From Rhodovulum steppense (GTDB lineage Bacteria > Pseudomonadota > Alphaproteobacteria > Rhodobacterales > Rhodobacteraceae), in assembly GCF_004339675.1 (NCBI RefSeq), contig NZ_SLVM01000033.1:1-34840 (forward strand): DNA of 34,840 nt, given 5' to 3'. The notes beneath the pieces were generated by a model. That model was not told the origin of the DNA. It saw only the letters and a list, made by a program, of their open reading frames with translations, and did not search any database. The first letter of the stretch is position 1. Every line of letters begins with the position of its first letter. A program made the translations under genes and the position numbers. Shown here piece after piece: positions 20,845-25,247 of the stretch.

Positions 20845-21000
20845 ATCTGGTGCTCCCTTCGGGGAGTGAAAAGGGAAGCCGGTGCAAGCCCGGCGCTGCC
20901 CCCGCAACTGTAAGCGGCGAGCCCCTGCCCGAAAGCCACCGGTCCGCAGGGCCGGGAAGGCGGGCGGATCGGCCGAGACCCGCAAGCCAGGAGACCTGCC
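20845..21000 (+). promoter_or_regulatory. Cobalamin riboswitch
   Basis: The conserved order is present: GGTGCTCCC stem region (about 20849), AAAGGGAAGCCGGTGCAAGC (20870-20890), the GCCCCCGCAACTGTAAGCGG core (about 20899-20918), a GGGAAGG segment (20953-20959), GACCCGCAAGCCAGGAGACC and the B12-box end near 21000. It binds adenosyl- or other cobalamins and shuts off the downstream operon. Roughly 200 bases of GC-rich leader follow before the first gene and must contain the expression platform. The operon it controls carries a Cys-rich small-domain protein and two cobQ genes. Confidence 0.93.
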
Positions 21001-21210
21001 AGAGCGCTGAACCGACCCCGGGCGGCGGGCCCGGAGGCAGGCTGCGTCGGGGCCGTTGCGGCCGCCGCGCCATTGCCTTCGAGAACGTCCTTCGTGGTCA
21101 TGGGCCGGGTTCGACCGCTGCCTGCGGAAAGTCCGGCCGCCACATCCTGGCGGATCCGTGCGGGACTGCGCGGACCTGCAAGGCCCGGACCGTGAAAGGA
21201 GGCCGTGCCC

Positions 21211-21564
21211 GTGCAACCCAAGGACATGACCGCGAACGAAGGCTACAAGGGCTTCACCAATACCGGCTGCCCCTTTCTGCCCTGTCACAAGGGCGTGCAG
21301 CGCGAATTCAACTGCCTGTTCTGCTACTGCCCGCTGATCGCCTATGACTGCCCCGGCCCCTACGAGGTCTATACCGACCGCAACGGGCTGACGCGCAAGG
21401 ATTGCTCGGCCTGCGCGCTGCCCCATGACGGCTATCACCAGTCCTGGAACTTCATCCAGCGCTGGCTGGAATACCCCGTGGTCTGGTCCGGCCAGCCCCA
21501 GACCGATCCACCGACCCGACGCCCCAGGCCATCGGGACAGGATGACGGAGGCCCGCAGGCATGA
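21211..21564 (+). CDS. Cysteine-rich small-domain protein of cobalamin loci
   Basis: 117 residues. GTG at 21211 was chosen because GGAGG ends 8 bases upstream; a GTG two codons earlier is too close and an ATG at 21226 rather far. The body carries FTNTGCPFLPCHKGV, FNCLFCYCPLIAYDC and RKDCSACALPHDGY, a set of at least eight Cys plus His resembling the 'Cysteine-rich small domain' (PF04071) found in B12-biosynthesis operons. It probably binds zinc or an Fe-S cluster; its biochemical role is not established. Its stop overlaps the first cobQ ATG (ATGA). Riboswitch control ties it to corrinoid metabolism. Confidence 0.82.
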   Translation: MQPKDMTANEGYKGFTNTGCPFLPCHKGVQREFNCLFCYCPLIAYDCPGPYEVYTDRNGLTRKDCSACALPHDGYHQSWNFIQRWLEYPVVWSGQPQTDPPTRRPRPSGQDDGGPQA

Positions 21565-23174
21565 GCGCCCGTGCCCCGTGGGGCAAGACGGGGGCTGCGA
21601 TGATCTTCGACCTGCCCGCGGACGATGCCCCGCCGCAGATGCCCGAGATCGCGGTGCCGATCCTCGACCCTGCCCCGCCACGCCGGGGCCGGGCGCTGAT
21701 GATCCAGGGCACCAGTTCCGATGTGGGCAAGAGCCTGCTGGTGGCGGGGCTGTGCCGCGCCTATGCCCGCCGCGGCCTCAAGGTGGCGCCGTTCAAGGCA
21801 CAGAACATGTCGAACAATGCCGCCGTGACGGTGGACAGCGACCTGCCGCCCGGCCCGGACGGGGTTCAGCCGCGGGGCGAGATCGGCCGAGCGCAGGCGT
21901 TGCAGGCCCGCGCCGCGGGGCTGGCCCCGTCGATCCACATGAACCCCGTGCTTCTGAAACCGCAGGCGATGGTCGGCTCGCAGGTGGTGCTGCGCGGCCG
22001 ACCGCTGGGCAACTGGCCCGCACGGCATTACCACGGGCTCAAGCCGCTTCTGCTGCCTGCGGTGCTGGACAGCTACCGGCGCATCGCGGCAAGCGCCGAT
22101 CTGGTGCTGGTCGAGGGCGCGGGCGCCGGGACCGAGACCCATCTGCGCCGGTCCGACATCGCCAACATGCTGTTCGCCGAGGCCGCCGACCTGCCGGTGG
22201 TGCTGCTGACCGACAATGACCGCGGCGGCGCGATGGCGGCGCTGGTGGGAAGCTGGCTTCTGCACACGCCCGAGGAACGCGCCCGGGTCGCGGGCTATCT
22301 CGTCAACAAGTTCCGCGGCTATTTCTCGCTCTACGAACCCGCCTGCCGCACCATCACCGGGATCACGGGCTGGCCGCTTCTGGGCGTGGCGCGCTGGTTC
22401 GAGGGCGCGGCGCTGCTGCCGGCCGAGGATGCGCTGGCGCTGGAACGCCCGGCGCGGTCGGCGGGCGGTGCGCTGGTGATCGCGGTGCCGCAGATCGACC
22501 GGGTGGCGAATTTCGACGATCTGGACCCGCTGTCATCGGAACCCGGCATCGATCTGCGCTGGGTCCGCCCGGGCCAGCCGATTCCGGCCGAGGCCGATGT
22601 GGTGCTGCTGCCAGGCTCCAAGACGACGCGCCAGGCGCTGGGTGCGCTGCGTATGCAGGGCTGGGATATCGACATCCGCGCCCATCTGCGCCGGGGCGGT
22701 CGGGTTCTGGGCATCTGCGCGGGGTTCCAGATGCTGGGCCGCATGGTGCGCGACCCCGACGGCATCGAGGGCCCGCCCGGCGAGACGCCGGGACTGGGTC
22801 TGCTGGAGGTCGATACCACCATCACCCGCGAGAAACGGTTGGTCGAGCTGGACGCGACCGACCGGATCAGCGGCGCCCGCGTGACCGGCTACGAGATGCA
22901 TATGGGCCGCACGACCGGCCCCGGGCTCGATCAGCCCTGGCTGGTCCTTGACGGCCAGCCAGAGGGGGCGGTTTCGGCCGATGGCCTTGTGATGGGCGGC
23001 TATGTGCACGGGCTGTTCGGTGCCGACGGCTACCGGACGCACTGGATCGGGGCGATGGGGGGCAGCGGCTCGGGGCTTGAGCATGGCGCACAGATCGAGG
23101 CGGCGCTCGATGCGCTGGCCGATCAGATCGAAACCGACCTCGATCTGGACGCGCTTCTGGCGCTGGCGCGATGA
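21561..23174 (+). CDS. Cobyric acid synthase CobQ, divergent copy with N-terminal extension
   Basis: 537 residues. The N-terminal dethiobiotin-synthetase-like ATPase domain shows GTSSDVGKSLLVAGLCRAYARRG and FKAQNMSNNAAVT; the C-terminal class I glutamine amidotransferase domain has nucleophile Cys in GICAGFQMLG and catalytic His in GGYVHGLFG. It amidates the b, d, e and g carboxylates of adenosylcobyrinic a,c-diamide using glutamine and ATP. Compared with the next gene it has an extra ~43 residues at the start, an insertion (SDLPPGPDGVQPR) before GEIGRAQ, and NKFRGY where NKFRGD is usual. Start overlaps the upstream stop. It is longer than typical CobQ (about 485). Either it is a true second CobQ or has shifted substrate. 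Confidence 0.9.
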   Translation: MSARAPWGKTGAAMIFDLPADDAPPQMPEIAVPILDPAPPRRGRALMIQGTSSDVGKSLLVAGLCRAYARRGLKVAPFKAQNMSNNAAVTVDSDLPPGPDGVQPRGEIGRAQALQARAAGLAPSIHMNPVLLKPQAMVGSQVVLRGRPLGNWPARHYHGLKPLLLPAVLDSYRRIAASADLVLVEGAGAGTETHLRRSDIANMLFAEAADLPVVLLTDNDRGGAMAALVGSWLLHTPEERARVAGYLVNKFRGYFSLYEPACRTITGITGWPLLGVARWFEGAALLPAEDALALERPARSAGGALVIAVPQIDRVANFDDLDPLSSEPGIDLRWVRPGQPIPAEADVVLLPGSKTTRQALGALRMQGWDIDIRAHLRRGGRVLGICAGFQMLGRMVRDPDGIEGPPGETPGLGLLEVDTTITREKRLVELDATDRISGARVTGYEMHMGRTTGPGLDQPWLVLDGQPEGAVSADGLVMGGYVHGLFGADGYRTHWIGAMGGSGSGLEHGAQIEAALDALADQIETDLDLDALLALAR

Positions 23175-24625
23175 CCGCGCGGCGGCTGATGGTGCTGGGC
23201 ACCGGCTCGGATGTGGGCAAGAGCCTGCTGGTCGCGGGGCTCTGCCGTGCCTATGCGCGGCGCGGCCTCAAGGTGGCGCCGTTCAAGGCGCAGAACATGT
23301 CGAACAATGCCGCCGTCACCGCCGATGGCGGCGAGATCGGCCGGGCGCAGGCGTTGCAGGCGCGCGCGGCGGGCGTTCCGCTGTCTGTCCACATGAACCC
23401 CGTCCTGCTCAAGCCCGAAACGGATGTCGATGCGCAGGTGGTGGTGCAGGGCCGCGTGCTGGGGCGGTATTCGGCAAGCGCCTATCAGCAGCTGAAACCC
23501 GGGCTTCGGGCCGCGGTGGTCGAAAGCCTGGGGCACCTGTCGGCCGCCCATGATCTGGTGCTGATCGAAGGCGCGGGCAGCGGTGCCGAGCGATACCTGC
23601 GGCCGCAGGACATTTCCAACATGGGTCTGGCCGAGGCCGCCGACCTGCCCGCGCTGCTGGTGGGCGACGATTCGCGCGGGGGTGTCACGGCGGCCGTCAT
23701 CGGGCATCACCGGCTCTGGACCGACCGCGAGCGTGCCCGCATCGCGGGCGTGATCGTGAACAAGTTCCGCGGCGATCCGGACATCTTCGCCCCAGCAGCC
23801 GCGGATATAAGGGCCGAAACCGGCTGGCCCGTGCTGGGCCTTGTGCGCTGGTCCGACGCCGCGCGCGCCCTGCCCGAGGAGGATTCGCTGGGCTTCGGGC
23901 GCAAGCGCGGTGCAGCGGGCGGGCTGGTGATCGCGGTGCCGGAACTGCCTCGGATGGCGAATTACGACGATCTCGACCCGCTGGCCGCCGAACCCGGCGT
24001 CGATCTGCGCTGGGTCCGCCCCGGCCAGCCCATCCCGGCAGAGGCCGACATCGTCCTGCTTCCCGGCTCCAAGGCGACGCGCATGGCGCTGGAGGCGGTC
24101 CGGGCCGAGGGCTGGGACATCGACCTGCGCGCGCATCTGCGCCGCAGCGGACGGGTCGTCGGGCTTTGCGCCGGGTTCCAGATGCTGGGACAAGCGGTGC
24201 GCGACCCCGATGGCATCGAGGGGCCGCCCGGCGAAACCGAGGGGCTGGGCCTTTTTGATGTCGTCACCACGCTTACGGCCGACAAGCGGCTGGCCGAGAT
24301 CGACGCGACGGACGAAATCAGCGGCCTGCGCGTCACCGGCTACGAGATGCACATGGGCCGAACCGTCGGCCCGGGGCTTGACCGCCCGTGGCTGCGGATC
24401 GGCGGCAGGCCCGAGGGTGCGGTTTCGGCCGATGGCCGTGTGATGGGCAGCTACCTGCACGGGTTGTTCGGCGCGGATGGCTTCCGCGGTCATTGGCTGA
24501 CGGCGATGGGCGGCACCGCCTCGGCAACGGACCACGCCGCGCGGCTGGACCGAGCGCTCGACACGGTTGCCGTCGAGATCGGGGGGGCTCTCGATCTCGA
24601 CGCGCTGCTGGCGCAGGCGCGGTAA
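23171..24625 (+). CDS. Cobyric acid synthase CobQ, canonical copy
   Basis: 484 residues, the usual length. ATPase domain: GTGSDVGKSLLVAGLCRAYARRG, FKAQNMSNNAAVTADGGEIGRAQ, MNPVLLKPE, EGAGSGAERYLR, RGGV and VNKFRGDPDIF. Amidotransferase domain: GLCAGFQMLG (nucleophile Cys) and GSYLHGLFG (His). All expected motifs are intact. The ATG overlaps the stop of the first cobQ. Long DNA stretches around FKAQNMSNNAAV are nearly identical between the two genes (21773-21826 and 23263-23316), pointing to tandem duplication or local gene conversion. It should be the enzyme of the main cobalamin pathway; the remaining cob genes are outside the window. Confidence 0.93.
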   Translation: MTARRLMVLGTGSDVGKSLLVAGLCRAYARRGLKVAPFKAQNMSNNAAVTADGGEIGRAQALQARAAGVPLSVHMNPVLLKPETDVDAQVVVQGRVLGRYSASAYQQLKPGLRAAVVESLGHLSAAHDLVLIEGAGSGAERYLRPQDISNMGLAEAADLPALLVGDDSRGGVTAAVIGHHRLWTDRERARIAGVIVNKFRGDPDIFAPAAADIRAETGWPVLGLVRWSDAARALPEEDSLGFGRKRGAAGGLVIAVPELPRMANYDDLDPLAAEPGVDLRWVRPGQPIPAEADIVLLPGSKATRMALEAVRAEGWDIDLRAHLRRSGRVVGLCAGFQMLGQAVRDPDGIEGPPGETEGLGLFDVVTTLTADKRLAEIDATDEISGLRVTGYEMHMGRTVGPGLDRPWLRIGGRPEGAVSADGRVMGSYLHGLFGADGFRGHWLTAMGGTASATDHAARLDRALDTVAVEIGGALDLDALLAQAR

Positions 24626-24749
24626 ACCCAGGTGAAGGAGGGACGATGCGCGGCACTTGTCGCCATGCCTTGGAATCGCCCCGGCGAATAGATGTCGAGG
24701 TGGGAACCAGGACTGTGACCCAGTGATCTTGTGTTGCAGCCCATGAGAG

Positions 24750-25247
24750 CATCCGCCCGCCGATCTCGGCCGCGACGATCCGGGCCTCGTCAGTGCCGAA
24801 CTGGGTCTGGACGAAGATCACGCGGATATTCTCGGCGCGGGCGGACTCGATGGTGGCGGCGAACATCTTCGGACCCGGCTCCATCCCCTGTTTCTCGATC
24901 GCGATCTGGCGCAGGTCATAAGAACCGGCCAGATAACCGAAGGCAGGGTGGAACACGAGGAAGGCCTTGCCGACGTTCGGACCGTGGCCGCTGATCGCCC
25001 TTGTATCGACAACGTCGGTCATCCTCGGAACCGGCATGTCGGGGCGCGCCGCCCGGACCTGCGGTATCCAGTTGCGATCATGCGGAATGCCTTTCGCGAC
25101 ATGATCGCCGCCGATCACCTCGGCCATAGCCGTCAACGACGAGATACTGACAACGACTTACAGGTCAGGCTCACCCGCACGCAACGGGCTGGTCGGCATC
25201 AACGCCGGAACGGGGATCAACAGGGAGCGTAGGGGGAACGGTTTCAT
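24750..25247 (-). pseudogene. Broken ZnuA-like zinc-binding lipocalin-unrelated periplasmic protein gene
   Basis: Reading from an ATG at 25247, a signal peptide (MKPFPLRSLLIPVPALM...) is followed after 29 codons by an in-frame TAA (25160-25158). The same frame then continues with VVVSISSLTAMAEVIGGDHV, the start of a mature ZnuA/AztC-like (cluster A-I) zinc-binding protein, and later VGKAFLVFHPAFGYLAGSYDLRQIAIEKQGMEPGPK and IRVIFVQTQFGTDEARIVAAEIGG, the ZnuA C-terminal lobe. Much of the middle, including the central metal-ligand region, is absent, and similarity stops near 24750. So there is a stop, an internal deletion and a truncated end. It lies 12 bp after the stop of the TonB receptor at 25259-27250, so the two once formed an operon. 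No permease or ATPase gene follows. Confidence 0.82.

Follow-up and report, generated by a model that had tools for sequence, protein, structure and literature searches.

Tandem CobQ variants of purple phototrophs in Rhodovulum steppense, possibly a cobyric acid synthase divided between two paralogues

The DNA analysed here, which we call the window, is an entire contig of 34,840 nucleotides (NZ_SLVM01000033.1, or C33 among the 70 contigs of the 3.66-Mb genome) from the alphaproteobacterium Rhodovulum steppense, and it carries two adjacent genes for cobyric acid synthase (CobQ) that follow a cobalamin riboswitch and a gene for a small cysteine-rich protein, all on the forward strand. The riboswitch aptamer (RF00174) occupies 20846-21003 and scores 119.8 bits with cmscan (E = 9.5e-30; gathering cut-off 31.5 bits); an earlier sequence-only reading had placed these genes under a single such element, which indeed lies just outside the interval that it considered. 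The cysteine-rich protein, a member of PF04071, is encoded at 21211-21564 from a GTG start that was set by alignment with its relatives (21205 is an alternative), and the two cobQ genes, A1 and B2, span 21561-23174 and 23171-24625. For A1 there are two candidate starts, the ATG at 21561, which overlaps the stop codon of the cysteine-rich gene, and the ATG at 21600, which is conserved in relatives. The stop of A1 and the start of B2 share four bases (ATGA), as would the cysteine-rich gene and A1 if translation began at 21561, and the earlier description of two full-length tandem reading frames with a four-base overlap and intact amidotransferase residues is borne out.

Both proteins are cobyric acid synthases by curated cut-offs: against thresholds of 273 bits for PRK00784 and 309.9 bits for TIGR00313, A1 scores 573.8 and 374.7 bits and B2 scores 577.3 and 386.9 bits. 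Assignment to CobB/CbiA was rejected, the scores being 47.2 and 51.5 bits against a cut-off of 254. The P-loop Lys, the Glu of the EGAG motif and the glutaminase Cys and His are invariant in 101 aligned rows, A1 and B2 included. The predicted structure of A1 has a mean predicted local distance difference test score (pLDDT) of 90.6 and a predicted template modelling score of 0.91, and a Foldseek search with this model found that its two halves resemble the glutaminase GatD and dethiobiotin synthetase, the fold expected of CobQ; among solved structures, a sequence search found no full-length CobQ and no relative of PF04071. The median ratio of nonsynonymous to synonymous substitution rates (dN/dS) is 0.20 for A1, 0.22 for B2 and 0.19 for a third CobQ encoded elsewhere in the genome, indicating purifying selection on all three. 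That A1 and B2 might be pseudogenes is ruled out by their intact residues and by dN/dS values of about 0.2.

The third CobQ, which is invisible from the window alone, resides on contig C1. A1 and B2 are 65% identical to one another and each is 55% identical to this protein, which falls among the canonical CobQs of the family (Shimodaira-Hasegawa-like approximate likelihood ratio, SH-aLRT, 99 in a tree of 101 rows and 100/98 in a tree of 71 rows) and which, on its sequence, is the ordinary, separate alphaproteobacterial copy. Its gene is preceded by one for a receptor, matched best by the B12 receptor model TIGR01779 at a score below cut-off, and by an open reading frame for a periplasmic protein, with a riboswitch upstream of the receptor gene. 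This arrangement of BtuB-like receptor and cobQ is repeated in a second genome of the genus (G014), and receptor or periplasmic neighbours were not found within 1.5 kb at four other loci of this type. A salvage role had been suggested for A1; the copy that looks placed for salvage, judging from these neighbours, is the third one, in R. steppense and in G014.

Two trees establish where the tandem copies belong. Both, like all counts of residues, left out a sequence at a contig end (G671) and the truncated A1 of G014, and, as the 101-row tree had long branches, the 71-row tree and a topology test were run without the longest of them. Relatives of A1 (A-types) and of B2 (B-types) together form a single clade of 55 in the larger tree (SH-aLRT 99) and again in the smaller one (100/99), where B-types, which here take in a copy from G686 and another from G697, are grouped at 100/99, tandem A1 proteins at 100/98, and A-types that have no partner at 99/95. 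Trees of tandem A1 and of tandem B2 branch in a common order, with Rubrivivax first, Cereibacter next, and then G566 with the genus of the window, as they would if both genes had travelled together.

A-types are marked by an insert of 12 residues, which in A1 comprises residues 81-92 (counted from 21600; positions 21840-21875) and is predicted to be ordered, its block having a pLDDT of at least 91. It is present in all 40 A-type rows and also in the B-types of G686 and G697, is partial in the Rubrivivax B-type and is absent from the other 14 B-types, and this spread makes it probable that the insert was ancestral to the purple clade. An N-terminal extension, an insert and the motif NKFRGY had all been noticed in A1 by the sequence-only reading, and all three are there; NKFRGY fails as a mark of the A-type, for it was seen only in the window's genus and in G566, and it is the insert that serves.

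What distinguishes the tandem proteins from other CobQs is that each has lost conserved acidic residues, A1 that of KPxxD and B2 that of DIDRGG. Position 124 is Met in A1 (21969-21971) and Met, Leu or Gly in all 15 tandem A1 proteins; it is Asp in 15 of 15 B2 proteins and Asp, Glu or Asn in 68 of 71 single-copy or canonical rows. Of the three rows that deviate, two are the copies of G686 and G697, for which a B-type partner was found in another part of the same stretch. The acidic or Asn residue of KPxx(D/E/N) is therefore missing from 17 of 17 A-types with a partner, while A-types without one keep both conserved acidic residues (23/23). The second motif reads TDNDRGG in A1 (Asn206-Asp207, 22215-22220) and GDDSRGG in B2 (Ser168, 23672-23674), where the 71 other rows without exception have Ile or Leu followed by Asp or Glu: position 206 is Asn in 15 of 15 tandem A1 proteins and Asp or Glu in 15 of 15 B2 proteins, and position 207 remains acidic in 15 of 15 tandem A1 proteins and is Ser in 17 of 17 B-types. 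A third acid, at position 241, is found in 70 of 71 other rows and is lost in 13 of 15 tandem A1 proteins (Tyr241 of NKFRGY in A1, 22320-22322). Mapped on the tree, the change at position 124 requires two losses, or one loss and one regain. These acids are typical of single-copy enzymes rather than proven to be essential, and on this comparison of sequences we file the pair as a variant of CobQ. It follows too that B2 is not the canonical copy that it had been taken for, both on account of its GDDSRGG and because the ordinary copy is the third CobQ beside the BtuB-like receptor.

The occurrence of such proteins was surveyed in several samples. In 248 genomes of the window's family, one per genus as drawn and with up to five candidates scored in each, a CobQ match at E ≤ 1e-100 was found in 196; there was a single match in 194 of these, three in G000 and two in G098, which upholds the statement that genomes usually have one CobQ, and the best match outside G000 was 60% identical. 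A scan of named genomes, from which the best 80 of 587 rows were kept, yielded seven loci at 65-71% identity (Thiobaca, a metagenome-assembled genome of Chromatiales, two entries of Rhodopseudomonas palustris, Rhodoblastus, Marichromatium and Rubrivivax), all others in those 80 being at 56% or below. On three Cereibacter plasmids A1 and B2 occur at 78-79% identity, and G566, an alphaproteobacterium of the window's family, also holds both. Finally, among 96 genomes of the purple sulfur family to which Marichromatium belongs, 22 contain an A-type CobQ at 66-70% identity, and in 19 of these 22 it is the sole CobQ, and it should therefore be capable of cobyric acid synthesis in those bacteria, provided that they produce B12.

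Every A-type genome tested outside the window's genus also encodes the phototrophy marker pufM (28/28 distinct genomes, with the seven of the named scan and G566 all positive), as do 16 of 16 genomes within that genus. In the Marichromatium family pufM is present in 22 of 22 A-type genomes and in 10 of the 74 others (Fisher p = 2.4e-14, with genomes treated as independent; one of the ten is a mere fragment below cut-off), and when only the holders of a CobQ are compared the counts are 22 of 22 and 7 of 24. By the insert, by membership of the purple clade and by pufM in the genome, the window's pair belongs to this lineage; its B2 has no insert and is placed there by the clade. The sequences strongly support a phototrophy-linked CobQ lineage that occurs, in these samples, solely in purple phototrophs.

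Gene neighbourhoods point in the same direction. Of the 22 A-type loci of the purple sulfur family, 15 have bchE upstream in the same orientation, 92-691 bases ahead of the A1 match (TIGR02026 confirms it at L100, L101, L105 and L241), and over the same span it is found at none of eight canonical CobQ loci of that family. The gene metH follows within 1.5 kb in 5 of the 22 loci, and G566 has in a row bchE, a pduO-type adenosyltransferase gene on the other strand, A1 and B2. BchE requires cobalamin, according to the available portions of PMC3150298 and PMC13142503. Excerpts of the literature that treats bchE with cobQ report no linkage between the two, and among the matches listed we found no description of a phototroph-specific or paired CobQ in open-licence literature. 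As a side observation, both Rhodopseudomonas entries encode a similar small protein in divergent orientation beside A1 (L102 7364-7879 and L104 7279-7926, minus strand), and that of L102 has no NCBIfam match.

A possible explanation for these patterns, to which we give about as much credence as doubt, is that A1 and B2 constitute a phototrophy-linked cobyric acid synthase that has been divided between two interdependent paralogues. Under this explanation, scarcity of cobalamin would lead the riboswitch to permit joint expression of the cysteine-rich gene, A1 and B2, and the pair would convert the a,c-diamide to (adenosyl)cobyric acid by amidating its b, d, e and g side chains at the expense of glutamine and ATP, the product going into the cobalamin that BchE and MetH need. 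Each protein would keep its own glutaminase and ammonia channel and the work of the synthetase would be shared out, since each paralogue appears to have lost part of a conserved synthetase surface that the other retained; such reciprocal losses suggest that A1 and B2 act on different side chains one after the other or assemble into a mixed complex. The cysteine-rich protein may be a metal- or cluster-binding helper. A divided or interdependent pair has moderate support, and so has the supply of cobalamin to BchE as its reason. A point mutation in Salmonella CbiP reportedly disturbs the order of amidation, which we do not use as support.

Several observations weigh against this explanation. Seven of the 24 non-A-type CobQ holders of the purple sulfur family are phototrophs, and 7 of the 22 A-type loci have no adjoining bchE (one of the seven is cut by a contig end), so that the link to photosynthesis is not obligatory; in the window, too, the pair does not adjoin bchE. 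Because the pair is absent (G002, G005, G010) or broken (G004, G014) in pufM-positive genomes, phototrophy can do without it. Simple demand is disfavoured by Rhodobacter capsulatus, whose cobalamin genes, according to available excerpts of PMC5643017, are lower in photosynthetic cells than in aerobic ones. The grouping of all A-types together is weakly supported (87/54 in the 71-row tree), and a clade of tandem A1 with tandem B2 is not rejected by the approximately unbiased test (p = 0.129). Two Cereibacter A1 copies retain FRGD, and the residue counts given above are counts of sequences rather than of independent events.

An alternative is that the purple CobQ amidates hydrogenobyrinic acid a,c-diamide to hydrogenobyric acid in a metal-free route, leading to cobalt-free corrinoids or to late insertion of cobalt, with the cysteine-rich protein helping in metal insertion or scavenging. 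We consider this unlikely, but it agrees with several published findings: as excerpted, Kieninger 2019 (PMC6771967) reports that some purple sulfur bacteria make cobalt-free corrinoids in the absence of cobalt, and that E. coli given the cobQ of a purple sulfur bacterium together with the diamide pathway excretes hydrogenobyric acid, and the accessible text of PMC7693184 describes hydrogenobalamin isolated from a Chromatium strain. The production of hydrogenobyric acid makes metal-free activity of the purple enzymes plausible. In addition, an A-type CobQ occurs in 22 of the 29 pufM-positive CobQ holders of the purple sulfur family, and the genome of R. steppense contains the late-cobalt pathway gene cobF, which shares 78% identity with a relative confirmed by TIGR02434. 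On the other side, that the published cobQ is of the A-type is an assumption; we found no statement on whether a canonical CobQ accepts the metal-free diamide; and A1-B2 follows, in relatives, the gene cobO, whose adenosyltransferase acts on the cobalt diamide, which fits the ordinary substrate. The source of the published gene was presumably Chromatium strain D. The text of PMC3368242, as far as available, equates A. vinosum DSM 180 with that strain.

The two explanations can be joined, in that a two-protein cobyric acid synthase dedicated to anoxygenic photosynthesis might act on a metal-free corrin, with its cysteine-rich partner supplying or inserting the metal afterwards. This combination is distinctly doubtful; if true, hydrogenobyric acid would be a true intermediate, the pair would be the first case of four amidations shared by two paralogues, and the cobalt-free corrinoids described from purple bacteria since the 1960s would be accounted for.

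It is also conceivable, though improbable, that A1 and B2 are each complete and are kept as isozymes, either for dosage or to suit differing levels of oxygen, with the third copy in use under another condition. The intact catalytic residues of all three copies and the purifying selection acting on each agree with such a model, which does not lead one to expect a reciprocal loss of residues that partner-less enzymes retain, as interchangeable copies would have no cause to show it. Very unlikely, in our view, is that A1 has turned to a new substrate, such as an intermediate of bacteriochlorophyll, and left the cobyric acid step to B2: the adjoining bchE, the insert and the changed motifs of A1 could be read in this way, but where the A-type is the sole CobQ (19 of 22 carriers in the purple sulfur family) it probably performs the cobyric acid step itself. 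We know of no amidated bacteriochlorophyll precursor. The earlier suggestion that A1 acts on another corrinoid or tetrapyrrole loses ground for the same reason, since the ordinary reaction is probably within reach of an A-type enzyme, to which action on a metal-free corrin may be added. A strain-specific recent duplication or an assembly artefact, which the adjacency and 65% identity of A1 and B2 might have suggested, has next to no probability and is refuted by the occurrence of the pair in 11 of 16 genomes of the genus, on Cereibacter plasmids, in Rubrivivax and in G566, and by trees with separate A and B clades inside one purple CobQ clade.

Within the genus, the tandem A1-B2 is present in those 11 genomes and the canonical copy in all 16; G014 has a truncated A1, G004 has fragments, and three genomes (G002, G005, G010) have neither gene. 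The cysteine-rich gene is found in 13 of the 16, being missing from G005, G010 and G014. G014 (L060, 8607-19001) has an A1 that breaks off at about residue 467-480, lacks B2 and the cysteine-rich gene, and continues after the cut into genes that look like a CRISPR-cas block. It is a phototroph that keeps the third cobQ and has lost the pair naturally.

In relatives, the pair comes after cobO inside the main cobalamin cluster. The corresponding cluster of R. steppense is on contig C4 and is 86% similar to that of G012 over 8.3 kb, and this similarity ends at the end of cobO, precisely where G012 runs on into A1-B2. The break implies that the order in the window, riboswitch, cysteine-rich gene, A1 and B2, is a derived rearrangement. 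In other genomes the riboswitch stands upstream of the cysteine-rich gene or of a set of cobB, A1 and B2. Near the cysteine-rich gene of G012 (L238, 2992-5876) there are also two distinct guanidine riboswitches (RF00442 and RF01068) less than 3 kb apart.

The cysteine-rich protein itself matches PF04071 at 6.1e-13 (49 bits against a gathering cut-off of 27), as do six relatives above that cut-off, and has eight conserved Cys and one His. Its recurrence beside the divergent CobQ, which had been proposed as a check, is confirmed: of the 22 A-type loci of the purple sulfur family, 11 have the gene no more than 1.5 kb downstream, and it is near A1 in loci of Rhodopseudomonas, Rhodoblastus, Marichromatium, Rubrivivax and Cereibacter. 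The association of this gene with the pair is older than the gene order of the window. PF04071 is rare in the family, occurring in 1 of the 248 genomes and, in a wider draw, in 10 of 398, namely G000, G566 and eight genomes of one other genus (g340). These eight (L182-L189) have a divergent copy with 35-52% local identity, within 1.5 kb of which no cobalamin query matched. Given these copies, and since two methanogen controls were positive, PF04071 itself is not specific to phototrophs. Terms for the cysteine-rich domain were absent from the cobalamin and CobQ literature among the matches listed.

Other observations concern the surroundings of these genes. Of two Cereibacter plasmids that were opened, one was typed as conjugative and holds cobB-like, A1, B2, cysteine-rich and cobU genes. 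On Cereibacter pORIO2 (L181, 308-12015), a plasmid typed as conjugative, there are five cobalamin riboswitches in less than 12 kb, and this stretch is a mobile B12 island. A third, very divergent CobQ-like protein with a long branch, 42% identical to A1, is encoded in Rubrivivax (G654, C3:13697-15043). In the window, runs of TonB receptors, ATP-binding cassette genes of iron or haem type (judged by eye) and a binding protein of peptide/nickel type (SBP_bac_5) fill the contig at 7654-19499. On the minus strand at 24336-25136 is a ZnuA-like zinc-binding protein of which the end part alone matches (PF01297 positions 156-234); it is probably a gene remnant, and it adjoins a TonB receptor and a ZigA-like zinc GTPase, the latter slightly below its cut-off. 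The A1-B2 pair is thus located in a metal-uptake neighbourhood of the contig.

Through gene neighbourhood and distribution, the lineage connects anoxygenic photosynthesis with a step in the making of vitamin B12. It supplies candidate genes for the metal-free corrinoids of purple bacteria, which lack an explanation so far, and it offers a natural enzyme pair from which to learn how a single CobQ orders four amidations.

Among known systems, the nearest is CobQ/CbiP (TIGR00313, PRK00784), with which the proteins of the window share the synthetase and class I glutaminase domains, the P-loop, the Cys and His and the setting in a cobalamin operon. They differ from it in the 12-residue insert, in occurring as tandem paralogues whose changes at KPxxD and DIDRGG complement each other, and in being restricted to phototrophs in our samples and linked to bchE. 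The a,c-diamide synthase CobB/CbiA has the same two-domain amidoligase plan, but the window proteins fall far below its cut-off, and a separate cobB is present in the genome. As in known riboswitch-controlled cobalamin operons, RF00174 lies upstream of cobalamin genes, whereas here it precedes the cysteine-rich gene, A1 and B2 jointly and in a derived order. BchE, the cobalamin-dependent anaerobic cyclase of bacteriochlorophyll synthesis, would be a consumer of the product, and is encoded next door in relatives but not in the window.

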